Assembly: GCF_000166775.1 (NCBI RefSeq)
Contig: NC_014720.1
Span: 186,001-250,000, forward strand
DNA length: 64,000 nucleotides
Source: Caldicellulosiruptor kronotskyensis 2002
Lineage (GTDB): Bacteria; Bacillota; Thermoanaerobacteria; Caldicellulosiruptorales; Caldicellulosiruptoraceae
Direction: 5' to 3'
The notes below the pieces were generated by a model. The model saw only the letters and a list, made by a program, of their open reading frames with translations, was not told where the DNA came from and did no database searches. The translations under genes and the position numbers were made by a program. Shown here piece by piece: positions 2-63,965 of this stretch. Every line of letters starts with the position of its first letter. Position 1 is the first letter of the stretch.

Positions 2-3000
2 TCGTTAGTTTTAGTATTTGCTTTGATTTTGAGCTTTTTTGCACCTGCGAGTGCTCAGACAAATACAAGGAATGACATTTCAGGTCATTGGGCTGCAGGG
101 GAACTGACAAAATGGATATCAAAAGGCATCTTGCAAGGTTATCCTGACGGGACAATTAGGCCTGATAAGAGTATTACAAGAGCTGAATTTGTTATGCTTT
201 TGGACAGAATATTCAAATTTGTTGATAAAGCAAATCTTTCTTTTGCAGATGTGAGTACTAATAGCTGGTATGCCGATGCAGTAGCTAAGGCGACTGCTGT
301 AGGTGCAATTATTGGTGATACTAATGGTAAGTTTCGGCCAAATGATCCTATTAGTCGTACTGAGGCAGCTGTTATACTTTCAAGAATATTCAATCTGGAA
401 GCAACAAATGAAAGTGTTTTAGACAAATTTAGCGATTCAGACAAGATTCCAAGTTGGGGTAAAGAAGCATTAAGTGCGATGATTGAAAAAGGGTACATGA
501 AAGGAAGAAGCGGTAACGTTATCGCACCAAATAGTCCCTTGACACGAGCAGAATTCGTAAAATTAATAGATAAAATTGTAGGTGAACTTGTAACCACTGA
601 AGGCACACGCACAGGCAATGTAGCTGGAAACCTTGTTGTTAATACTAAAAATGTGACTTTGAAAAATATGGTTATTGATGGTGACCTATATTTAACTCAG
701 GGTGTAGCAGAAGGAGCTGTTCAACTTGAAAATGTTGTGGTTAAAGGTCGCACTATAATTAAAGGCGGAGGCGAGATTGTTATAGATAATTCGTCAATAG
801 CAGACAAGCTTTTCGTTGAAAAAATGAAAGGGAACAAAAGGATTATAGCAAGTGGTTCTACAGAAATTAAATCAGTAGAATTGGGTTGTGCCGCTACTTT
901 GCAAGAGGACAAAATCAGCGGCAAAGGCATTCAAACTGTAAGAGTTCTTCCAACAGTTTCTTCTATGCAAGAAATTAACTTACACGGAGATTTTGAACTT
1001 ATCTCATTAGAGGCAGCAAACGCAAAAGTAAACATAACTAAAGGTTTGATCAAGACTTTTGAAGTAAAATCAACTGCAACGAATTCAAGCATCCAGGTTG
1101 GCAACGAAGCTAAGATTGAAAAATTAACTGTCAATGCAAAGGTAGAGGTGAAAGGGCAAGGCGTTATTCAGAATGCTAAGATAAATGTCTCTGGTGTGAC
1201 AATGGAGAGAAAACCAGCAAATGTAGAAACTGCACCAGGTGTGACTCTAAATGTTGTTTCTAAAGAGGAAGCGGATAAAAAAACATCAGGTAACACTGGC
1301 GAGTCCATATCTCAAGGACCTGCGATTATTACACTGCCAGTTACTACTCCTGTATTGACTTCTCCACAAGCACCTACCGGTCTTAATATTAAGTCAATCT
1401 CGACAAATTCTATTGAGTTAAATTGGTTGCCTGTAAATGGAGCGTCTTATTACAATGTATATCGAGCATTTAGCAGCGCTGGTCCATACAAAAAGATTAA
1501 TACCACGGCTATACAATCAACTACTTATACCGATACAAATCTAATTGCAGGCACTGCCTACTACTATAAAGTTTCTGCAGTTAATGAATATGGAGAATCG
1601 AAATTGTCAGAGGCAGTTGTTGCAACTACACAGACTGCACCAGAGGGATGGAAACTTGTGTGGAGTGATGAATTCAACGCTACGCCAGCACCTGGGGTTG
1701 ACGAAAACAAGTGGACGTATGAAATAGGCGGCGGTGGGTGGGGTAACAATGAGCTTCAGTATTATACTAATAGTATCAAGAATGTATATATAGAACAAGA
1801 TCCTGATAATCCCAATAACGGATTTTTAGTTATTAAAGCAATAAAGGAAGATTACAAAGGATATCATTATACTTCGGGGAGAATTAAGACAGCAGGGAAA
1901 TTTGAATTTACCTATGGCAGGGTAGAAATGAGAGCAAAACTACCCTACGGTCAGGGCATATGGCCAGCTTTCTGGATGCTTGGGAGCAATATCAACACAG
2001 TTGGGTGGCCAAATTGTGGTGAAATTGACATAATGGAGTTTGTTGGCAAAACACCAACAAGAATTTACGGAACAATTCATGGACCAGGTTACAGTGGTGA
2101 CAATAGTATTGGCGCATGGCATGAATATCCAAAAGGGTTTACTGATGATTTTCATACCTATGCAATCGAGTGGGAACCCAATGTAATTCGTTGGTATTTT
2201 GACGGTGAATTGTATCAGGTAAGAACAGTATCTGATTTGGTAGGCAAAACATGGGTATTTGATCATGATTTTTATATAATTCTTAACTTGGCAATAGGAG
2301 GCAATTGGCCAGGAAGTCCTGATGCATCAACGGTATTTCCACAAAAATTTGTCATTGACTATGTACGCGTATTTCAACGTGAAAGTGGAGAGTATCCAGC
2401 TGCACAGTACAGAAATCTAATCCAAATAAAAAGCATTGGTAATGGCAAATTTGTATGTGCAGACAAATACAATGGCGACTACCTCTACGCCAATAGATCA
2501 TCTGCAGGAAGATGGGAAATGTTTGAATTAAAAGACCTGGGAAATGGCAAGGTTGCATTAATAAGCTTATTGAATTATAAATATGTAAGCGTATACGGGG
2601 AGAATAACTCATTAATCCCTAACAAAGAAAGTGTAGGGTTATCAGAGACTTTCCATGTTGTTGATAATGGTGATGGAACAAAGTCTTTGAAATCTATGAT
2701 TAATGGGAAATATGTGACCATTGCAAGTAACTCACTTTTAACAGCAACTGCTGAGACAATTGGTGAAAATGAGAAATTTACTTTTATCGACTGTTCGCCA
2801 CCTTCATCACCAGCAGAAGTGAATGCAACTTCGACCTCAAATTATTCTGTTAGCTTAAGTTGGTCGCCAGTTGAACGTGCAACAGGTTACAATATATATC
2901 GTTCAGAAAACAGTAGTGGGCCGTATACAAAAGTTAATGCTACTGCTATAACTTCTACAACATATACTGATTCAGATGTTGATGCAGGCAAAACCTACTA

Positions 3001-6000
3001 TTATAAGGTTTCTGCAGTGAATGAGTATGGCGAATCTGCTTTATCACAAGCAGTTTCAGCAACCACTCCAGTTATGACAACAGTACCGGCACCACCGACA
3101 GGACTGATGATGGTATCAAGTACCGAAGATTCGATAGAATTGAGCTGGATGCCTGTTAAAGGTGCACTTTACTATAATATCTATAGATCTGCAACCAGCA
3201 ATGGACCATTTGAAAAAATCAACCAAGAAGGTATACAAAACACAAGTTATAAAGACACTAACTTAAATCCAGGTTCTGTTTATTACTATAAAGTTTCTGC
3301 AGTGAATTCAATAGGTGAATCAGAACTTTCAGAAGCGCTTTTCGCAACAACTACTGGATATGGAATTGTAACATCTGGCACCACAACTAAATATTATTCA
3401 TATATAATTGCACTAGCAAACTCAAAAATTGTTCATGCGGATTCAACAAGTACTCCTCTTACAGCAAGTGCTAATGAAGCAACAACAGATTCTGAGTTAT
3501 TTGAGATCATATTCAAGAGTGACGGCGGAGTAGGCTTTGCTTCTAAGTCACTAAACAAACTTGTATGTGCTGATACACTTAACAACAATAATTACAAACT
3601 TATTCCAAGAACTAACTATAGTACTACACCTGGAGGTTGGGAAACATTCTTCATTGAACCACAAGGTGATGGAACTGTAGCAATTAAGGCTAATAATGGT
3701 GGGAAATATGTAACTGTAGATCCCGTAACTGGTATATTAGCTGCAACAAGCAGTACAGTAGGGAAGAACGAAAAGTTCATTATTGTAACACCGCAAGCTG
3801 CTGGAGCCCCTGGTAATCTTACTATAACAAAAACATTATACAATTCAGTCAGTTTGAGTTGGACAGCACCATTAGCTTCTGTCATAACAGGTTATAATGT
3901 ATATCGTTCTACAACAAGTGGGGGACCATATACAAAAGTTAATGACACTCTTTTAACATCACACAGCTATACGGATACAAAAGTCTCAGCCGGTACTACT
4001 TATTACTATGTTGTTGCTGCTGTAAATGCAAGAGGAGAGGCGTATTCTAATGAAGTTACTACAACAACACTTAATGGTCCATTGGCTGCAGTGCCAACCG
4101 GGCTTGACATAGTTTCGAGTACTGCAAATTCTATTACTTTAACATGGAATGAAGCGCTTGGCGCTGAAGGCTATAACATATATCGATCAACAAGTAGGTT
4201 TGGGAAATATGTAAAAATCAATTCAACTCCAATACTATCAACCACTTATACTGATGAAAATTTGGATAGAACCTCCTATTACTATAGAGTTACAGCAGTC
4301 AACGAAAATGGAGAAACTGATTTATCAGAGCCAATCTCGTTAGAGATGAAACTATTTGGACCAAATGTTTATATATTTGACCCAGCAGATGATATTTCAC
4401 TAGTTCAAAAAGTATGTTCGGATATATTTGCCCAGATGGAGAGAGCTCATTTTAGCAGTGATGGAAACGGACTGTTTAACAACAGATATGCACTTTTGTT
4501 TAAACCAGGCACATACAACATTAGCTTAAAAGTTGGCTTCTATACCCAGGTTGCTGGTTTGGGTCGACTGCCTGATGATACCACAATACAATCTATGACT
4601 GTCGATGCTAAATGGAAACCCAATAACAACGCAACTCAGAATTTCTGGCGTTCCGCAGAAAATCTTGCAGTAAATAGTAACACTATGTGGGCAGTATCAC
4701 AAGCAGCACCGTTAAGACGTGTGCACATAAGAGGTAACTTAACACTGCATGACAGCGGAGGATGGTCAAGTGGAGGATTTTTGGCAGATTCTAAGATTGA
4801 TGGTACGGTATATTCTGGTTCACAGCAACAGTGGTTCTCAAGAAACGACACATGGGGAAGCTGGAACGGCCAAGTTTGGAACATGGTCTTTGTAGGAGTT
4901 GACAATCCTCCAGCTGGGACATGGCCAGCTACAAAGTATACTACTGTGGACCAAACACCTATTGTGAGGGAAAAGCCATTCCTCTATATTGATGAATCAG
5001 GTAACTACTTTGTATTTGTCCCAGACCTGAAGACAAATTCTAAGGGAATTTCATGGTCGAACGGCATGGGTGCAGGAAGATCCATACCGCTTAGTGAATT
5101 TTACGTTGCACGTCCTGAAACAGACACTGCTGCAACTATCAACGCTGCACTTGAACAGGGCAAGCATCTTTTGTTAACACCTGGGATATATCATCTTACT
5201 GAGCCTATTCATGTAACAAAACCCAACACTGTTGTGCTTGGTCTTGGGTTTGCAACGGTAGTTTCAGACAACGGAGTTACACCTATGTTAATTGATGACG
5301 TAGATGGAGTTATAGTAGCAGGGATTATCTTTGATGCTGGACCAGTAGAGTCAAAAGCCTTACTGCAGATAGGAACAGCTGGCAGCAGTGCGGATCATTC
5401 AGCTAATCCTGTATGTATTAGCGACGTTTTCTTCAGGGTTGGAGGACCACATCTTGGTAAGACAGAGGCGTGCCTTGTTATCAATAGTAACAATGTAATT
5501 GGTGATGATCTCTGGATATGGAGAGCTGACCATGGATATGGTGTTGGTTGGGATCAAAATACAGCTAAAAACGGCTTGATCGTAAATGGTAATGATGTTA
5601 CAATGTATGGACTTATGGTAGAACACTTCCAGGAATATCAGACGCTTTGGAATGGTAATGGAGGAAGGACATACTTCTATCAGAGCGAAATACCATATGA
5701 TGTTCCATATCAGGAGAGCTGGATGAGCAATAATGGTACTGTAAAAGGGTATGCATCATATAAAGTGGCAGATATGGTAACCTCTCATGAAGCATGGGGA
5801 CTTGGAATTTACAGTTACTTTAGAGATGCTGATGTTGATCTTGATAGAGCAATTGAAGTACCCAATCATCCAAATGTTAAAATTCACAACGCATGTACAG
5901 TGATGTTAGCAGGATACCCAGGCATTCTCCACGTTATAAATAATACAGGTGATCCAGTAATGGTAGCAGGTCAAAGAGCTGAGGTTACTGAATATTGTAA

Positions 6001-6670
6001 CAATGTGGATCAGCCAGTGATAGTACCTTCAACTGGCTATTATGAAACACCACAAGTTGTAACAATTACCTGTCCAACTGAAGGAGCAACAATTATCTAC
6101 ACCCTAGACGGTTCTACACCGTCCCGTACAAATGGAATAGTTTACACTGGGCCGTTTACTGTGCCTCTTGGAATCACAACTATAAAAGCAATGGCATACA
6201 AAGATGGTATGAACGATTCCTATATAGCAATTTCGACTCTTTACATTGGTGTGTTGTCTTTAAATAAACCTGCTACTGCATCGTCAGTAGCTACTAATAA
6301 TCCGGGTAATACCCCAGATAAAGCTGTAGATGGTAATCTTAACACCAGATGGGAATCTGCATATTCTGATCCACAGTGGATAACAATAGATCTTGGAACT
6401 GTATGCAGCATAAACACAATAGAAATAACTTGGTACAGTGCGAATTCATATGCAAAAGACTTCAAGATACAAGTTTCCAATGATAATTCAACCTGGACAG
6501 ATGTTTACAGTGTCACAAACTTGACTCTTTCATCACCGTATATTTCTAAAATTAATTTCAGCTCGCCTGTAACAGGAAGATATGTGAGGATGTATGGAAC
6601 TCGAAGAAGTGCAAGCTATGGATACTCAATTAAAGAGTTTGTAGTATTTGGAACTGTAGCTGAACAGTAA
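2..6670 (+). CDS. SLH-anchored GH16/GH55 beta-1,3-glucanase (5' partial)
   Basis: Cell-surface enzyme predicted to hydrolyse beta-1,3-glucans such as laminarin or callose. The frame is open at the left edge and reads hydrophobic residues into an APASA-Q signal-peptidase site, so the true start is upstream. Module order by approximate position: three SLH repeats (70-580); a linker; FnIII (1365-1635); GH16 (1640-2395) with the catalytic motif GEIDIMEF near 2020; a fascin-like beta-trefoil (2410-2800); two FnIII (2800-3350); a second fascin-like domain (3390-3795); two FnIII (3795-4350); a GH55-type beta-helix region (4360-6015); a chitobiase/HexA C-terminal-like domain (6025-6240); and an F5/8-type C (CBM32-like) domain (6255-6665). 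SLH repeats bind secondary cell-wall polymer. GH16 is endo-acting and GH55 usually exo-acting, so one chain could do both steps. GH16 is certain from its motif; GH55 is recognised from overall character only. Confidence 0.88.
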   Translation, partial: SLVLVFALILSFFAPASAQTNTRNDISGHWAAGELTKWISKGILQGYPDGTIRPDKSITRAEFVMLLDRIFKFVDKANLSFADVSTNSWYADAVAKATAVGAIIGDTNGKFRPNDPISRTEAAVILSRIFNLEATNESVLDKFSDSDKIPSWGKEALSAMIEKGYMKGRSGNVIAPNSPLTRAEFVKLIDKIVGELVTTEGTRTGNVAGNLVVNTKNVTLKNMVIDGDLYLTQGVAEGAVQLENVVVKGRTIIKGGGEIVIDNSSIADKLFVEKMKGNKRIIASGSTEIKSVELGCAATLQEDKISGKGIQTVRVLPTVSSMQEINLHGDFELISLEAANAKVNITKGLIKTFEVKSTATNSSIQVGNEAKIEKLTVNAKVEVKGQGVIQNAKINVSGVTMERKPANVETAPGVTLNVVSKEEADKKTSGNTGESISQGPAIITLPVTTPVLTSPQAPTGLNIKSISTNSIELNWLPVNGASYYNVYRAFSSAGPYKKINTTAIQSTTYTDTNLIAGTAYYYKVSAVNEYGESKLSEAVVATTQTAPEGWKLVWSDEFNATPAPGVDENKWTYEIGGGGWGNNELQYYTNSIKNVYIEQDPDNPNNGFLVIKAIKEDYKGYHYTSGRIKTAGKFEFTYGRVEMRAKLPYGQGIWPAFWMLGSNINTVGWPNCGEIDIMEFVGKTPTRIYGTIHGPGYSGDNSIGAWHEYPKGFTDDFHTYAIEWEPNVIRWYFDGELYQVRTVSDLVGKTWVFDHDFYIILNLAIGGNWPGSPDASTVFPQKFVIDYVRVFQRESGEYPAAQYRNLIQIKSIGNGKFVCADKYNGDYLYANRSSAGRWEMFELKDLGNGKVALISLLNYKYVSVYGENNSLIPNKESVGLSETFHVVDNGDGTKSLKSMINGKYVTIASNSLLTATAETIGENEKFTFIDCSPPSSPAEVNATSTSNYSVSLSWSPVERATGYNIYRSENSSGPYTKVNATAITSTTYTDSDVDAGKTYYYKVSAVNEYGESALSQAVSATTPVMTTVPAPPTGLMMVSSTEDSIELSWMPVKGALYYNIYRSATSNGPFEKINQEGIQNTSYKDTNLNPGSVYYYKVSAVNSIGESELSEALFATTTGYGIVTSGTTTKYYSYIIALANSKIVHADSTSTPLTASANEATTDSELFEIIFKSDGGVGFASKSLNKLVCADTLNNNNYKLIPRTNYSTTPGGWETFFIEPQGDGTVAIKANNGGKYVTVDPVTGILAATSSTVGKNEKFIIVTPQAAGAPGNLTITKTLYNSVSLSWTAPLASVITGYNVYRSTTSGGPYTKVNDTLLTSHSYTDTKVSAGTTYYYVVAAVNARGEAYSNEVTTTTLNGPLAAVPTGLDIVSSTANSITLTWNEALGAEGYNIYRSTSRFGKYVKINSTPILSTTYTDENLDRTSYYYRVTAVNENGETDLSEPISLEMKLFGPNVYIFDPADDISLVQKVCSDIFAQMERAHFSSDGNGLFNNRYALLFKPGTYNISLKVGFYTQVAGLGRLPDDTTIQSMTVDAKWKPNNNATQNFWRSAENLAVNSNTMWAVSQAAPLRRVHIRGNLTLHDSGGWSSGGFLADSKIDGTVYSGSQQQWFSRNDTWGSWNGQVWNMVFVGVDNPPAGTWPATKYTTVDQTPIVREKPFLYIDESGNYFVFVPDLKTNSKGISWSNGMGAGRSIPLSEFYVARPETDTAATINAALEQGKHLLLTPGIYHLTEPIHVTKPNTVVLGLGFATVVSDNGVTPMLIDDVDGVIVAGIIFDAGPVESKALLQIGTAGSSADHSANPVCISDVFFRVGGPHLGKTEACLVINSNNVIGDDLWIWRADHGYGVGWDQNTAKNGLIVNGNDVTMYGLMVEHFQEYQTLWNGNGGRTYFYQSEIPYDVPYQESWMSNNGTVKGYASYKVADMVTSHEAWGLGIYSYFRDADVDLDRAIEVPNHPNVKIHNACTVMLAGYPGILHVINNTGDPVMVAGQRAEVTEYCNNVDQPVIVPSTGYYETPQVVTITCPTEGATIIYTLDGSTPSRTNGIVYTGPFTVPLGITTIKAMAYKDGMNDSYIAISTLYIGVLSLNKPATASSVATNNPGNTPDKAVDGNLNTRWESAYSDPQWITIDLGTVCSINTIEITWYSANSYAKDFKIQVSNDNSTWTDVYSVTNLTLSSPYISKINFSSPVTGRYVRMYGTRRSASYGYSIKEFVVFGTVAEQ

Positions 6671-40789: not shown

Positions 40790-40837
40790 AACAGGGGTTA
40801 GAATATGGGCTTTAAAAGAGCGTTTCTAACCCCTGTT
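40790..40837 (+). terminator. intercistronic hairpin after GH28
   Basis: A perfect 14-bp stem (AACAGGGGTTAGAA and its complement) with a 20-nt loop, with no U-tract behind it. Either a terminator needing help or an RNA processing/stability element. The sequence from here to the next gene (to 40975) is AT-rich. Confidence 0.55.
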
Positions 40838-40975
40838 AACAATAAATATCAATAGCACCACAAATAACAAGTGCTCAAACCATTCTATTTATATTATCTC
40901 ATAAAATTGGGAGGTGTTCAAAAGAAAAATATAACTATAAACACTAAAAAAATAAAACACAGGGGAGGTAAATTG

Positions 40976-43927
40976 ATGAAAAAGAAAAAATTAATAAGCT
41001 TGGTAATTATGTTAGTTTTTTTGGTCAATAGCGTGATTGGAGTTAGCACGGTATTTATGGTAAATGCATTTGCGGGTACATGGCCAGTTACGTGGAACTA
41101 CACAGTAATAGGTGACTCGACATACCAACCAGGCTCGCCTGTTGGTTCATTTGACCATCAGACAGGCAAAATTACTGTCAGTGCAACTCAGGCTGAAATT
41201 AACAGAACGTCCACCCAAACTGCAACAACAGTAGATTATTTTCCTTTTGTATACACGCAGGTCAACAATACTATATTTACAGCCTATGTCTATATTAATG
41301 ACCCAATTTTATTCACTAATGCAAATTCTAACTATCCAAGAGGTGGTTTGATAGTAAGAAACGGGCTTGGAATACAAGATAGCTATTATGCTGCACTTGT
41401 CGAATATAACAGCGCAAGTTCAACAAAGTGGGATTTAAGAGCTCAAAGGAGATTTGGAAGTACAGCAGGTTCATCAACTCGTAGCGCAATATCTTTTCCG
41501 TGTGTATTAAAAATTGTAAGGTCATCATCAACAAATATAGCTGCGTATTATGGTGAAGTTAACACAAACACAGGAGTAATAACATGGTATGGACCAATCG
41601 GTGCAAGGTCTGATGCAGGGGTTTTAAATTCAACATTATACGTAGGTGTTGGTATAGCGGTTCAAGGGAGTAATGGGAATCCGGCAACACTTCAGACAAG
41701 TTTTGTAAGAATAAAAGATGGGGTAGCAGACTCAAATACATCGCCCCAAAATTTATCAGATATATTTAATCTTCCACAAAAGCCACAACTTATAGTAGAA
41801 AGTGGAGATTCGCAGGCAAAACTTATGTGGAGTTATGATAGAAATGCTATTTCTTATGACATATTGCTTTCAGAGGATGGTTCAAACTTTAACCTTGTAG
41901 CATCTAATGTAACAGAAACAAGTGAAGGTCTCTTGGTTGTTCAAGGAAATGCCTTTTATACTATAAACGGTCTTACAAATGGCAAACAATATTTTGTAAA
42001 AGTGAGAGCCAAAAACGAATATGGAGTGACTGAATCAGACCCTGTTATAGTTGTTCCAGAAAAACCAACTCCACCGGCCAAACCAACAGTTATACAAACT
42101 GCATATAGTGATGGCTGGGTTTCAATTAAGTGGAAAACAGTATCCAAAGCTACTTATTACGTTGTATATATAGGTGATGCACCAAATAATTATACAGATT
42201 GGAAAATAGTTAATGATAATGGTCTTCCAAATCAGACATATGAATGTAAGTTTGATAACCTTATTAACAAGAAACCTTATTATTTGAGGCTTTTTGCAGG
42301 GAACAATGTAGGCCTTAGTGAAGGTTCAGATGAAGTTGTGATTGTACCATACCCAATACCTGCAATACCTACGTTTGAAGTAATTCCTGGTGTGCTTGAA
42401 CTTACTGTAAAATGGAATAAAGTAGAGGATGCTGAAAGATATACTCTATATTTAGGGAAAAGTTCTAAAAATTATACTATTAGTGCTATTGTTTATGACG
42501 ATGGCAGCCCATTTTATACCTATACATTCAAGAAATTGGAAGGGTTACAATACTATATTACGATGAATGCAGCGAATAATAGCGGTACAAGTGCAAATGC
42601 CCAAGAAGTTTCAGCAATGCCTTTGCTGCCACAACATTATGTTACAAATTTAGTTGTGTATGACCAGGACAACGCGGCAAATTGGTCGCTTCGATACAAT
42701 TTGCAAGTTGGGAGTAAAATTTTTGGAGACAGAGATTATGCTGTTGTATCCATGCCAACAGTCTTGGAAGGGGCTTATTGGATTAGTACTGCTAATCTTT
42801 CAAGGTCTTATAATGCCACACCAGTGATTGCAAGCTTTATTGTAACAGAGGATGTTGACATATATGTTGCTATTGATTCGAGACTTTATACATCTAATCA
42901 GGTACCAGTGTTCTTGAGTACTTGGGATCTTACAGACTACAAAATAATTGATAACGGGACAAATCCTCAAGTAACATATTTACTCTATAAAAAGTCTTTT
43001 AGTAAAGGTTCGTTGGTTGAACTTGGTTATCAAGGTGTTAGTAGCGGATGTGTATTTTATTTCGTTTTAATGAAAAAACAACTATTTTCCATTGATTCTG
43101 AAGATATTGTTTATACTAATAAACCAGTATATAACATTAAAGGCAAAATATTTGCTGGTGCTTCAGTAACTATTAAGAAGGCTAACGAAATTGTTGCAAC
43201 ATATGATACTGCTGACCAAGATAGAGAATTTAACATAAGTATTAGTCTTCAGGAAGGCGAAAATTTGATAGAGTTTTCAGCTATATCTACCGACGGATAT
43301 ATTTCAAATAGACTTATAAAAATTGTATATGACTCTACCTCTCCTAAGATTACCTTTAAACAAACTCCGGTTGAATACGAAAATGAAACACCTTCAGCTA
43401 TTATAAAGTTTGTTTGCGACGAGGATATTTATATAAACATAAAAGTCAATGAACAAACTGTCTTAGACAATGTATATTGTCCAGCACTACAAGACAAAGA
43501 ACTATTAGTTCCTCTAAGTGAAGGAAATAATACGATATCACTAACAGCAAAAGACAAGTCTGGTAATATAGCCGCATATCAGTGGGTAACAGTTTATGAA
43601 TATATGATTAAAAACATAAGTTTTGTTGATGACTATGAAAATCAGATTACAAGTTTGACAGCAAATGCCGTAATAAATGTCCTTGCAAGGGCAGAAAATA
43701 AGTTAAATATAAGCAAAGATATAGCTATTGTTATTGCATATTACAATAGTGCAAATCAGATGATAGGATATAGTATCTCATATGATACCGTCTTGCCAAA
43801 TTCATCAGAAGAACTTTTGGCGGGAATTCAGATGCCTTCGTATATTAATGGTCTAAAAGTAAAAGCGTTTATATGGAACTCATTGGAAGGAATGATTCCA
43901 CTTTCATCTGTTATTGACCTCAAATAA
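40976..43927 (+). CDS. secreted modular protein, no recognised catalytic domain
   Basis: Exported protein of 983 residues. The ATG at 40976 follows GGGGAGG and opens a signal peptide (about 1-33). Order by rough residue: a concanavalin-like beta-sandwich (35-255, with GGLIVRNG); three FnIII-like domains (265-553); a beta domain of about 150 residues starting VTNLVVYDQDN that resembles accessory domains seen in bacterial pectinases; two Ig-like domains (703-875); and a C-terminal module (876-983) that also ends the lyase-esterase encoded next. No SLH repeats and no catalytic motif were seen. Placement between GH28 and the pectate lyase suggests a pectin-binding or scaffold-like role. An unrecognised catalytic fold remains possible. 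Confidence 0.75.
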   Translation: MKKKKLISLVIMLVFLVNSVIGVSTVFMVNAFAGTWPVTWNYTVIGDSTYQPGSPVGSFDHQTGKITVSATQAEINRTSTQTATTVDYFPFVYTQVNNTIFTAYVYINDPILFTNANSNYPRGGLIVRNGLGIQDSYYAALVEYNSASSTKWDLRAQRRFGSTAGSSTRSAISFPCVLKIVRSSSTNIAAYYGEVNTNTGVITWYGPIGARSDAGVLNSTLYVGVGIAVQGSNGNPATLQTSFVRIKDGVADSNTSPQNLSDIFNLPQKPQLIVESGDSQAKLMWSYDRNAISYDILLSEDGSNFNLVASNVTETSEGLLVVQGNAFYTINGLTNGKQYFVKVRAKNEYGVTESDPVIVVPEKPTPPAKPTVIQTAYSDGWVSIKWKTVSKATYYVVYIGDAPNNYTDWKIVNDNGLPNQTYECKFDNLINKKPYYLRLFAGNNVGLSEGSDEVVIVPYPIPAIPTFEVIPGVLELTVKWNKVEDAERYTLYLGKSSKNYTISAIVYDDGSPFYTYTFKKLEGLQYYITMNAANNSGTSANAQEVSAMPLLPQHYVTNLVVYDQDNAANWSLRYNLQVGSKIFGDRDYAVVSMPTVLEGAYWISTANLSRSYNATPVIASFIVTEDVDIYVAIDSRLYTSNQVPVFLSTWDLTDYKIIDNGTNPQVTYLLYKKSFSKGSLVELGYQGVSSGCVFYFVLMKKQLFSIDSEDIVYTNKPVYNIKGKIFAGASVTIKKANEIVATYDTADQDREFNISISLQEGENLIEFSAISTDGYISNRLIKIVYDSTSPKITFKQTPVEYENETPSAIIKFVCDEDIYINIKVNEQTVLDNVYCPALQDKELLVPLSEGNNTISLTAKDKSGNIAAYQWVTVYEYMIKNISFVDDYENQITSLTANAVINVLARAENKLNISKDIAIVIAYYNSANQMIGYSISYDTVLPNSSEELLAGIQMPSYINGLKVKAFIWNSLEGMIPLSSVIDLK

Positions 43928-43940
43928 TCTCTTTTTAGAA

Positions 43941-43971
43941 GCAGAGGAAGAAACATTTTGTCTTCCTCTGC
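43941..43971 (+). terminator. intercistronic hairpin
   Basis: Perfect 11-bp stem (GCAGAGGAAGA and its complement) with a 9-nt loop and no T run behind it, in the 102-nt gap between two secreted-protein genes. Confidence 0.5.
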
Positions 43972-44029
43972 TCGTGTAAATTATTCAAAGAATGTCCTGG
44001 GGTATATTAAAAAAGGGGGGTAAACTGAA

Positions 44030-47000: not shown

Positions 47001-48655
47001 CAACGATTTTAACCTATGATGTTGCTGCAGGAACACCAAAACCAGACGGGACTGGAACTTATGGGACATCTGGCAGCGCAAGTGTAACTATTAACAGTGG
47101 AGCTATTAACTTTACTGCAGAAAATATAACATTTGAGAATGCGTTTGATGAAAACCAGCCAATCTCAAGCAAACAGGCTGTTGCTGTAAGGTCACTTGCT
47201 GATAAAATGGTATTTAAAAATTGCAGATTTATAGGCAATCAAGACACCTTGTATGCAGACGCGGGGAGACAATACTTTAAAGATTGCTATATTGAAGGTG
47301 ATGTTGACTTTATATTTGGTGCTGCTCAGGCTGTTTTTGAAAACTGTACCATCTTCTCAGTAGACAGAGCAGGAATTACACCTAAAGGATATGTAACAGC
47401 TGCATCTACAAAAAAGACAGACAATTTTGGTTTCTTGTTTTTAAACTGCAAATTCGTATCAAACGTGACAGTAGCAAATTCAGTTTATTTAGGAAGACCA
47501 TGGCATCCAAGTGCTGATTTGAACAGATGGGTAAATGTTGTAATTAGGGAATCGTATTTGGGTGAGCATATAAACGATTATGGATGGACAGCTATGAGTT
47601 CAACTGATAGCAACGGTAATACAATTTGGTTTTATCCACAAAATGAGAGATTCTATGAATATAAAAACTATGGACCTGGTGCTAAAATAAATGATTTTAG
47701 ACCACAGCTTGATGATGTTATGGCACAGGTTTACACAAAACAGAATGTATTAGATGGCTGGGATGCTGACAGTTTCATAGATACAGTTTATGATCCAATT
47801 AAAGTTTATATTGGGAATCCTCGAAAAGACTCTACAACAAAGATAAATTATACTGTGAACATAGCTGCAGATTCAGACTGCGAACTGACAGTGAAAAAAG
47901 GAAACGAGGTGGTTTACACCAATCCTTCCTACACCGCAAATACACAGATAACTGTTCCAGTTGTTTTATCAGATGGAACAAATAACATACTTATTATTGC
48001 TTCAAAAGCGGGTGAAAATGTAGCAAAACTGATAACTGTAGATTTTATAAACTATGCTCCTGAAATAACAGTTGTTCAAGCACCGGCATCGAAAACCACA
48101 AAATCAACAGTAACGGTAAAAGCAAAGATAAGTAAAAATGGAACTGTAACTTTCAAACGAAATGGAGAAAGTTTAGGAAGCATTAATGTCGAAGCAAATA
48201 AAGAGTTCAGTTACGATTATTCTCTGGTAGAAGGAGAAAATACTTTGGAATTGGTTGTTGTTGATGAAGGTGGAAATATTAGAATAACAACATTCAGAGT
48301 TGTTTACGAGATTGATTGGGGTTCAAATGCTTTTTCAGTTCAGATTGTTCAAGTTAAAAACATAGCTGGTTCTATCTTGAATGCAATAGGTTCTAACAAA
48401 GACATAGTGGTTACTGTAAATATCAAGAACAACACAGGACTTACAAGAACCGGAACAGTAGTAGTTGGAGTGTTTGATTCAACAGGTAAATTGGTTGTAT
48501 ATGCAGGTAAAAAGATATCAATAGAGGCTGGGAAGACTATAACATACAGGGCAGGCTTGAAAATAAATTATGTTAATGGACCATTAGTAAAAGCATATGT
48601 TGTGGATGCTTTAAAGACAAAGAATTATCTTTCTAATATTGCATCATTTAAATAA
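44030..48655 (+). CDS. bifunctional pectate lyase (PL1) / pectin methylesterase (CE8)
   Basis: Secreted enzyme of 1541 residues expected to de-esterify pectin and then cut it by beta-elimination. Order by rough residue: signal peptide (1-27); PL1 beta-helix (30-360) with FPGAEGAG, PDALTSFGGSKNIIIDHCSF and SHTSRLPRVN; a calcium-binding, thrombospondin-3-like stretch (395-422, DTDHDGMPDNWE); Ig-like (445-530); concanavalin-like domain (542-742); two Ig-like (747-920); CE8 (922-1250) with GNQDTLYADAGRQYF, GDVDFIFGAA and LGRPWHP; two Ig-like (1257-1430); and a C-terminal module (1433-1541) shared with the preceding protein. The GTG start is 9 nt after a GGGGGG run. No SLH repeats, so surface retention would need another mechanism. 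Confidence 0.9.
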   Translation: MRKRLLSIFVIVTFLLSLMPFNLITKAENLVPAFPGAEGAGMYTTGGRGGDVYEVTNLNDSGPGSLRDGVKLSNVTIVFRVSGTIHLKSELVISGSNITIAGQTAPGDGITIADYGVRITGSNIIIRYLRFRPGSANINSEPDALTSFGGSKNIIIDHCSFSWSVDETLSIYRTENLTVQWCIAAESLTMSGHWKGRHGYGGIWGGYNATWHHNLLMSHTSRLPRVNVGSAPIPEAKVEFINNVIYNWGFNNTYGGENTTLSLINNYYKPGPGTQDTVMSRIANPTPNGYQSSWYISGNVLEGNSDVTNNNELGITASGTYTKLTEPVDIPGEVTIQDAQTAYQEVLAKAGAVYPKRDAVDARLVNEVKNGLGRFINTEAEVGGYPELQSAQAPQDTDHDGMPDNWEISNGLNPNDPSDRNGYKFGNGYTNLENYLNSLVDMNYAPKNPEVTIVNPKYNAIVNAKSALKIEARANAFDGANITKVVFYDNGVKIGEDTTAPFSYTIGAVEEGIHYLVAVAYDSNGLSTQSTAVRIYAKGSDASLPWKIADIGNPAIKTAASFDNNGVLTIAANGKIGGSTDSFGYVYRKVYGDAELVARIDYLEKVDHNAFAGLMIRSSLDPGSPAAFIAKSYVKAEKLTQPTAVRFISRQVPNAQMPNTSDVDASSPNTVVNIDISWLKIKKVGTVVEAAYSLDGITWSTIGSYNLDLGNEYYIGFAVDSAQVTNQLYNYNVAKFSNISLIATDNFIEIYNHENDWINNGEYKVKGYANMDGKVTVKNLINGDSKSIDVIRQSEFELPVKLESGINTIAVNMQSTDASKTRQAVLNVVYDDRQPSISWISKPQPTVLSSAYKIAFSSNEDVYVTLLQDDMVVYQDCYIKANIPATFDINFEKGRNKIEVIVKDLGGNVTKEEFDVIYLASFDIMVDKNYAGNDGDIVNGVRIFKTVQAAVNSVPTNNTKRTVIFIKSGRYYEKITINSPNISLIGEDPMTTILTYDVAAGTPKPDGTGTYGTSGSASVTINSGAINFTAENITFENAFDENQPISSKQAVAVRSLADKMVFKNCRFIGNQDTLYADAGRQYFKDCYIEGDVDFIFGAAQAVFENCTIFSVDRAGITPKGYVTAASTKKTDNFGFLFLNCKFVSNVTVANSVYLGRPWHPSADLNRWVNVVIRESYLGEHINDYGWTAMSSTDSNGNTIWFYPQNERFYEYKNYGPGAKINDFRPQLDDVMAQVYTKQNVLDGWDADSFIDTVYDPIKVYIGNPRKDSTTKINYTVNIAADSDCELTVKKGNEVVYTNPSYTANTQITVPVVLSDGTNNILIIASKAGENVAKLITVDFINYAPEITVVQAPASKTTKSTVTVKAKISKNGTVTFKRNGESLGSINVEANKEFSYDYSLVEGENTLELVVVDEGGNIRITTFRVVYEIDWGSNAFSVQIVQVKNIAGSILNAIGSNKDIVVTVNIKNNTGLTRTGTVVVGVFDSTGKLVVYAGKKISIEAGKTITYRAGLKINYVNGPLVKAYVVDALKTKNYLSNIASFK

Positions 48656-48662
48656 AATTTGC

Positions 48663-48722
48663 CTGTGATTTAAAACATTTAATCACAGAGAGGGAAGGGG
48701 ATCTTGCCTTTCCTCTCTGTGA
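48663..48722 (+). promoter_or_regulatory. hairpin pair with alternative pairing before the SLH gene
   Basis: A 16-bp stem (arms 48683-48698 and 48707-48722) can form. Its left arm begins AATCACAG, which can instead pair with CTGTGATT at 48663-48670. No T run follows on the plus strand. Confidence 0.45.
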
Positions 48723-48751
48723 AAAATAAAAAAGAAAAGGGGGAAATCCTG

Positions 48752-50401
48752 TTGAAAAAGGTAAAAAAACTCATATCATTGTTTTGTGTTACCTCAATAT
48801 TGCTCTTGATTATTCCAGTATTAGCAGGAAATTTTACAATGAATATAAGTATAGATTCAAATAAAAATCTTGTTATTAATGGCAAAACAAGTGCAAAAGC
48901 TAATGTGACTGTAAAGGTCTTAGACCCGTTTGGGAACATAGATTATTTAGATCAAACAATGACGGATAACGATGGAGGTTATGAATTTAAGTATTCTCTT
49001 TCAGGGAAGGCAGAAGGTGTTTATACAGTTTTTATATACTCAAAAGATTTATCAGCGCCTATATCTAAAACAATAACATACACAACTTCTCAAACAGGTA
49101 GTTCAAGTGTTAATATTGTTTTACCAAGCACAAATACTTCAACTCAGCAGCAAACTCAACAGCAAACTCAGCAACAGACACAACAAACACAGCAAGGTCA
49201 AACAGATCAACAGAAACAGCCTCAACAAGTTCAAACAACAACTATTCAACCTCAGGTTCAAATAATTGGACAAACAGCTATTTCAAAGATTGATGAAAAA
49301 ATATTGGCTCAAACAGTGGCAAGCACTAAGGCAAACGAAAATGGTGAAAAAATAGTCCAGATTTCAATTGCTTCAAAGAGTAATGTTTTTGAGTATGAAC
49401 AAATAATTCCATTAAAAGTAATAAATAATCAAAATGTAGTTTTCAATATTTCAACAAACATAGGACAAATAAAAGTTCCAGCAGATGTAGTTTCAAATTC
49501 GTTAAAGGTGGAAAACTTGAGTGTTAATATAGGCAAAGTAGCAAATGAAGATTTAAACAATATCAAACAATTGGTAGGAAAAAACGTAGAGATGGCTATT
49601 AAAGTTCAAGTCAAAGTTGATAATAAAGTATTAACAGAAGAAAACATGCAAAAACCTGTTATTGTAAAGAGTCAATATACTCCTTCAATTGGAGTTCAAA
49701 CTAAGTATTTAGCGGTGATGAAAGTAACTGAAGATGGTAAAGTTGAACCGGTTGCAAGCGGAATGTATTTTGCAAACAGTAAGGAAATTGCATTTAGAGC
49801 AAAGGATTCGGCAAAGTATGTTGTGGTTGAAAACTATAAAACTTTTGATGACATTAAAAATGTTAGCTGGGCAAAAGAACAAATAGAGGTATTGGCATCA
49901 AAGGGCATAGTAAAGGGAATTGACAATAACAATTTTGCACCGCAAAAGCAGATAACAAGAGCAGACTTTTTGCTGCTTCTTGTGAGAGCCCTTGAACTCA
50001 GCGCACCTGTTAAGGACGATAATTTCAGCGATGTCAAGAAAGGCGATTATTACTATGATGCAGTGGGCACAGCAAAAGCTTTAGGAATAGTAAATGGAGT
50101 TGGAGATGGAAGGTTCAACCCTAAAGGACTTATTACAAGGCAGGATATGATTGTTATGGCTGACAGGGCGTTGAAAATTGCAGGTTATAAATACAGTAAT
50201 AGCAGTAAAAGTATAGATGCTTATGTTGATGCATCAAAGGTTTCGAACTATGCAAAAGAAAGTATACAGAAATTTGTATCAGAAGGATTCATCCAAGGTA
50301 GCAATAACAGTTTAAAACCTACCGATAATGCATCAAGAGCCGAGGTTGCTGTTATCATATATAGATTAATAAATAGCTATTATATACAGCAACTGAAATA
50401 A
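48752..50401 (+). CDS. SLH protein with Ig-like head and glutamine-rich linker
   Basis: Exported wall-bound protein of 549 residues starting at a TTG after AAAAGGGGG. Order: signal peptide (about 1-27); an Ig-like domain (28-115); a Gln/Thr-rich low-complexity linker (about 130-170); a beta-rich middle region without a recognised family (about 175-365); and three SLH repeats at the C-terminus (about 370-545), with ITRADFLLLL, ITRQDMIVM and ASRAEVAVI near their ends. No catalytic motif. It follows the two secreted pectin proteins and could tether them or the substrate to the S-layer, but only the SLH anchoring is established family knowledge. Confidence 0.82.
   Translation: MKKVKKLISLFCVTSILLLIIPVLAGNFTMNISIDSNKNLVINGKTSAKANVTVKVLDPFGNIDYLDQTMTDNDGGYEFKYSLSGKAEGVYTVFIYSKDLSAPISKTITYTTSQTGSSSVNIVLPSTNTSTQQQTQQQTQQQTQQTQQGQTDQQKQPQQVQTTTIQPQVQIIGQTAISKIDEKILAQTVASTKANENGEKIVQISIASKSNVFEYEQIIPLKVINNQNVVFNISTNIGQIKVPADVVSNSLKVENLSVNIGKVANEDLNNIKQLVGKNVEMAIKVQVKVDNKVLTEENMQKPVIVKSQYTPSIGVQTKYLAVMKVTEDGKVEPVASGMYFANSKEIAFRAKDSAKYVVVENYKTFDDIKNVSWAKEQIEVLASKGIVKGIDNNNFAPQKQITRADFLLLLVRALELSAPVKDDNFSDVKKGDYYYDAVGTAKALGIVNGVGDGRFNPKGLITRQDMIVMADRALKIAGYKYSNSSKSIDAYVDASKVSNYAKESIQKFVSEGFIQGSNNSLKPTDNASRAEVAVIIYRLINSYYIQQLK
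49141..49260 (+). repeat. CAA/CAG-rich low-complexity coding repeat
   Basis: Repeated CAGCAAACTCAA-like units encode QQQTQQQTQQ inside the SLH protein. It acts as a flexible linker and is prone to length variation. Confidence 0.75.
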
Positions 50402-50420: not shown

Positions 50421-50463
50421 GGAATGCTCTTTGAAGGTTTTATAAGCCTTAGAAGAGCATTCC
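50421..50463 (+). terminator. intercistronic hairpin
   Basis: An 11-bp stem (GGAATGCTCTT and its complement) with a smaller inner AAGG/CCTT pairing, in the 99-nt gap after the SLH gene. A short T-rich stretch follows, so it may terminate. Confidence 0.55.

Positions 50464-60878: not shown

Positions 60879-63965
<3,087 letters not shown>

Follow-up and report, generated by a model that had tools for sequence, protein, structure and literature searches.

The window analysed here, a stretch of 64,000 nucleotides, belongs to a genome of 2,843,785 bp in a single contig and contains a group of genes for secreted proteins and pectin-degrading enzymes. P0001 lies in a neighbourhood of GH105, GH28, PL1-pectinesterase and GH43 genes (Table 1). 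A Shine-Dalgarno sequence (GGGGAGG) was found 5' of its ATG at 40976, and full-length orthologs were present in 2 of the 11 other genomes of the genus, with identities of 83% (G002) and 73% (G009). Both orthologs aligned without gaps from end to end, were free of stop codons and shared the start methionine. The 983-residue reading frame given in the preliminary description was thus confirmed by the Shine-Dalgarno sequence and the gapless orthologs. An upstream GTG at 40871 was considered as an alternative start and rejected, as it had none of the Shine-Dalgarno or ortholog support of the ATG.

Table 1. Position of P0001, its domains and the neighbouring features in the window.
Feature	Position	Strand	Basis
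Stem-loop between GH28 and P0001, 14-bp perfect arms	40790..40837	+	z -6.5
P0001, multi-domain secreted protein, 983 aa, without recognised catalytic domain	40976..43927	+	ORF listing, Pfam/NCBIfam, orthologs, Shine-Dalgarno
Signal peptide, aa 1-33 of P0001	40976..41074	+	Own reading of translation
N-terminal domain, aa 34-254, possibly divergent DUF1349/concanavalin-like sandwich	41075..41737	+	Weak profile support
FnIII domain 1, aa 268-358	41777..42049	+	Above Pfam cut-off
FnIII domain 2, aa 362-452	42059..42331	+	Below Pfam cut-off, E 3e-4
FnIII-like domain 3, aa 455-549	42338..42622	+	Own reading; Pfam alone does not detect it
VTNL accessory domain, aa 553-705, homologous to 6hpd C-terminal domain	42632..43090	+	Sequence profile and predicted fold
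Two Ig-like domains, aa 705-876	43088..43603	+	Below Pfam cut-off; homology to neighbour
C-terminal tail module of P0001, aa 874-983	43595..43924	+	Homology to neighbour's tail
Stem-loop between P0001 and PL1-pectinesterase, 12-bp perfect arms	43940..43972	+	z -5.2
PL1 pectate lyase-pectinesterase, 1541 aa	44030..48655	+	Pfam, NCBIfam
Tail module of PL1-pectinesterase	48323-48652	+	Related to P0001 tail
Stem-loop after PL1-pectinesterase	48683-48722		z within -3.9 to -6.5
P0006, SLH protein, proposed adaptor	48704..50401	+	Pfam; true start may lie downstream of the listed TTG
Head domain of P0006, about aa 41-135	48824..49108	+	Head profile
Three SLH repeats of P0006	49838..50398	+	Pfam
Stem-loop after SLH gene	50421-50463		z within -3.9 to -6.5

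P0001, the PL1-pectinesterase and the SLH protein P0006 are encoded by a cassette of three genes, with P0001 at its head. All three genes were intact in 3 of the 12 genomes of the genus (G000, G002 and G009 only), where their order after GH28 was identical, and all three were absent from the remaining nine, one of which retained a remnant of the SLH gene. In G005 the flanks were kept, and the gene that follows the cassette in G000 started about 230 bp after GH28; slightly further on, GH43 was unmatched and a transposase-like frame stood in its place. In G010, GH28 was followed by the remnant, the last 49 residues of P0006 (L137:15444-15587), and then by a GH2 beta-galactosidase that is the counterpart of 60879-63959 in the window. 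GH28 and the counterpart of this GH2 were likewise neighbours in G001. The remnant and the GH28-GH2 junction in G010 indicate that the cassette was present in its ancestor and was lost there by a larger deletion, of which the remnant would be the scar. In addition, the four stable intergenic stem-loops (z -3.9 to -6.5) had no clear T-run, and scans for promoters and terminators gave nothing above shuffles. These stem-loops might influence how much mRNA the genes of the block yield relative to one another.

Scans with Pfam-A and NCBIfam found no catalytic family in P0001 and matched it to no known family of polysaccharide lyases or glycoside hydrolases; for these two collections, the earlier statement that P0001 has no known catalytic motif holds. 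SLH repeats were absent from P0001 and present in three copies in P0006, and neither cohesin nor dockerin was found in P0001, the PL1-pectinesterase or P0006. No relatives of P0001 were found in viral contigs, and a scan of genome contigs with the whole protein also gave none. A search of the open-access literature found no description of P0001 or of the tail and adaptor described below.

The preliminary description had assigned to P0001 three FnIII domains, two Ig-like domains and a concanavalin-like domain. The first FnIII domain scored above the Pfam cut-off and the second below it (E 3e-4), while the third was not detected by Pfam on its own. The two Ig-like domains (Glucodextran_B/Big-like) were below the Pfam cut-off, yet they were homologous to those of the neighbouring PL1-pectinesterase, in agreement with the assignment. 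The N-terminal domain was about 80% identical among the three P0001 orthologs, and it had no match in Pfam, including DUF1349 (PF07081), or in PDB sequences; a search of 395 further genomes of the phylum gave nothing clearly related to it. It was scored only by our own wider profile, which was built from DUF1349-like domains, one of them in the neighbouring PL1-pectinesterase. This profile gave the domain 13.6 bits, whereas none of 2000 shuffles exceeded 9.3 bits, and over the 235 ORFs of the window it placed P0001 second, behind the profile's own source, and a GH43 carrying a concanavalin-like domain third. A profile-profile comparison with the DUF1349-like family was colinear but weak (E 0.029, single comparison), and when it was compared directly with the DUF1349-like domain of the neighbour, the N-terminal domain showed no significant similarity. 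The profile score, which exceeded all 2000 shuffles, weakly supports a concanavalin-like sandwich.

The domain at aa 553-705, termed VTNL here, had no Pfam match. By tblastn it was found in two adjacent genes of Monoglobus pectinilyticus, which read by eye as PL1-type pectate lyases and received no name from Pfam, and in one Rufibacter GH2. The Monoglobus pair (L020:2297-9419) is annotated as hypothetical; its C-terminal halves, comprising VTNL and two more domains, were near-identical, and its N-terminal halves were pectate-lyase-like. More carriers came from profile scans with VTNL: two PL10 lyases, a PL11 rhamnogalacturonan lyase from a Ruminococcus MAG, a dockerin/beta-helix protein and additional GH2-malectin proteins of Bacteroidota. 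This recurrence beside PL1-type, PL10, PL11 and GH2 enzymes bears out the earlier reading of a pectinase-associated beta domain. VTNL is followed in the GH2 relatives by a domain homologous to 7zvo (E 7.8e-11), which we take to be the BT0996-C module.

Structure prediction, which the preliminary description had recommended for each domain, was informative for VTNL (pLDDT 79.5, pTM 0.81), while the single-sequence AF2 model of the N-terminal domain (pLDDT 33) was unusable and was set aside. The VTNL model matched the C-terminal domain of the GH2 beta-glucuronidase 6hpd (Z 19.5, rmsd 1.9, 138 residues) and that of the RG-II enzyme GH138 BP0997 (Z 11), and homology to 6hpd was confirmed by the VTNL sequence profile (hmmsearch, E 9.9e-13). 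Weaker structural matches were galactose-binding-like domains and CBMs; VTNL was not filed under CBM77 (5fu5, Z 3.4) or CBM35 (2w47, Z 3.5), to which the matches were only weak. Because its relatives and fold matches are uronic-acid polysaccharide enzymes, VTNL is an accessory module of such enzymes. In these relatives it is part of a carbohydrate-active enzyme, whereas in P0001 it is accompanied by no catalytic family and stands without an enzyme.

The final 110 residues of P0001 were related to those of the PL1-pectinesterase, so the shared C-terminal module noticed earlier is real, and it also ends unrelated enzymes beside one type of SLH protein. Within the genus, a combined tail profile also picked up a PL11 lyase of G001 and, in seven genomes, GH53 galactanases. 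The GH53 galactanases were 91-95% identical to the G000 copy, with only a partial frame in G007. There (L132:5337-6407), GH53 was in frame for its last 346 residues only, with tail and adaptor retained, which suggests truncation or a shift of frame. The PL11 and GH53 proteins had only their last 94-98 residues in common (53-58% identical), which indicates that the tail moves between enzymes. Across 249 genomes of the phylum, the tail ended a 1576-aa subtilase in G040/G086 and frames of 588 and 466 aa in G242/G165; in G085 it was internal in a protein without an SLH neighbour. A match in G228 was dismissed as chance, since the frame reads as an HrcA-like regulator.

For every protein ending in the tail, within the genus and in the outside genomes, the next gene downstream, in the same orientation, encoded an SLH protein. 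Those P0006-like matches of the genus that reached the N-terminal part sat directly after the tails, and the copy numbers of the two were equal in the 12 genomes; in the five genomes without a tail, matches to P0006 were confined to the SLH part. A profile of the N-terminal head domain recognised the tail-adjacent SLH proteins of the genus and of G040/G086 (E 3e-14 to 1e-44), did not clearly recognise the SLH neighbour in G242/G165, and left the other SLH proteins of the set unrecognised. The head of a 557-aa paralog adaptor scored 59.8 bits, compared to at most 11.1 bits in 2000 shuffles. In the genus as well as in G040/G086, which represent a single outside genus, every tail locus had a head-bearing SLH gene beside the tail gene. 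No charge complementarity was seen between tail and head: the tail charge was -3 in P0001 and +10 in the PL1-pectinesterase, and the GH53 tail was acidic. The adaptor beside PL11 in G001 (L110:7629-9880) was split across two frames, with the head in its own frame and in two tandem copies. At 23-6670, the window also carries a 2215-aa protein in which SLH repeats, GH16, FnIII and F5/8 type C domains are joined in one chain.

We consider it probable, with some reserve, that P0001 is a non-catalytic pectin-binding cargo which the SLH adaptor tethers to the S-layer. The parts of this explanation differ in strength: on the family scans, P0001 is very likely devoid of catalysis; by analogy with the VTNL carriers, it likely binds pectin; and the gene neighbourhoods offer a tentative argument that its tail docks on the head. 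In such a mechanism, VTNL, and perhaps also the N-terminal sandwich, would bind uronic-acid-rich pectin, with the FnIII and Ig-like domains serving as spacers. The tail, common to P0001 and the PL1-pectinesterase, would attach to the head of P0006, and the SLH repeats of P0006 would secure the docked complex to the cell wall. P0001 could in this way gather pectin beside the tethered PL1-pectinesterase. Direct support exists for the domain content, the joint presence or absence of the cassette, the adjacency of tail and SLH genes, and the homology of the heads. The genes of P0001, the PL1-pectinesterase and the SLH protein adjoin and either co-occur or are all absent, which suggests that this digester of plant cell walls keeps its breakdown of pectin at the cell surface by means of a tail and its anchor. 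The earlier proposal of a non-enzymatic pectin-binding scaffold thus survives in its first part, as no catalytic family was found, and a cellulosome-type scaffold is unsupported, as there is no cohesin or dockerin.

The docking step is the point at which a second explanation departs. P0001 could be a freely secreted pectin binder whose tail either confers stability or itself binds pectin or a polymer of the cell wall, the SLH protein having a separate role. The strongly basic tail of the PL1-pectinesterase would be well matched to a polyanion, for example pectin or a polymer of the wall, the G085 tail has no SLH neighbour, and the interaction of tail and head is itself deduced from the genes. 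Moreover, some of the findings sit poorly with docking: tails as different in charge as those of P0001 (-3) and the PL1-pectinesterase (+10) would have to share one common head, the SLH protein of G242/G165 is not clearly of the head type, the tail of G085 is internal, and the adjacency of tail and SLH genes may partly be inherited from the duplication of one locus. Lineages with tail or head outside the genus were few. However, the tails of P0001 and GH53 are acidic, and the tails of unrelated enzymes accompany one SLH protein type at equal copy number in 12 genomes; free secretion is therefore, in our estimate, rather unlikely.

The other two explanations concern what the domains of P0001 do. 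Lyases and hydrolases occur among concanavalin-like folds, and the N-terminal domain is conserved in the three orthologs without matching any family, so P0001 might be catalytic through a site that has escaped recognition and would most likely lie in this domain. Its profile support, though weak, points instead to a DUF1349-like domain. The preliminary description had also considered a new lyase or hydrolase inside the VTNLVVYDQDN domain; this was judged unlikely because VTNL, which accompanies enzymes and matches the GH2 and GH138 C-terminal domains, occurs in carriers whose catalytic domains lie elsewhere. With VTNL an accessory domain, we regard a hidden enzyme as improbable. Slightly more improbable still is a role without specificity for pectin, as a surface adhesin of a general kind or as a structural protein associated with the S-layer: chains of FnIII and Ig-like domains are frequent in adhesins, but the partners of VTNL act on pectin or other uronic-acid polysaccharides and the P0001 gene sits among pectin genes.

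Returning to the tethered, non-catalytic pectin binder, the loci point to a broader, still more speculative possibility: in this non-cellulosomal genus, the tail and the head-bearing SLH protein may form a display system independent of cohesin and dockerin that holds the PL1-pectinesterase, GH53 and PL11 together with a non-catalytic pectin-binding partner, the same pair serving other cargo (subtilase) in another family. If tail and head bind, they would make a thermostable pair, free of cohesin and dockerin, with which enzymes can be fixed to Gram-positive cells. Such binding would also account for the retention of several pectinases that lack SLH repeats at the surface of a pectin degrader without cellulosomes. 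VTNL, if it acts as proposed, would be a candidate pectin-binding family common to Bacillota and Bacteroidota.

Among known domains, the C-terminal domain of 6hpd resembles VTNL in fold and sequence, and that of GH138 BP0997 (6hze/6hzf) in fold. In both proteins the domain is joined to an enzyme, whereas VTNL of P0001 stands enzyme-less and its ligand is a proposed one. BT0996-C, a module of an RG-II enzyme, was reported to bind polygalacturonic acid (PMC9843283). It is likewise a non-catalytic module of pectin enzymes, and its relative (7zvo) follows VTNL in Bacteroidota GH2 proteins; however, it is the neighbouring domain of VTNL and not VTNL itself, and its binding is not transferable. The proposed system would work like cellulosomes, in which anchoring scaffoldins (cohesin and SLH) hold dockerin-bearing enzymes, in having a separate SLH anchor and a C-terminal docking module. 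Unlike in cellulosomes, P0001, the PL1-pectinesterase and P0006 have no cohesin or dockerin, tail and head are other domains, and their docking is putative; judged by its domains, the tail and adaptor of P0001 are not a member of the cohesin/dockerin systems. The S-layer xylanase Calkro_0402 of Caldicellulosiruptor, probably also the genus of the present genome, is an SLH-bearing enzyme (PMC7142884). Enzymes of this type perform surface-held polysaccharide degradation, as proposed for the P0001 cassette, but they carry the SLH repeats inside the enzyme, whereas in the P0001 cassette the repeats are on a separate protein.
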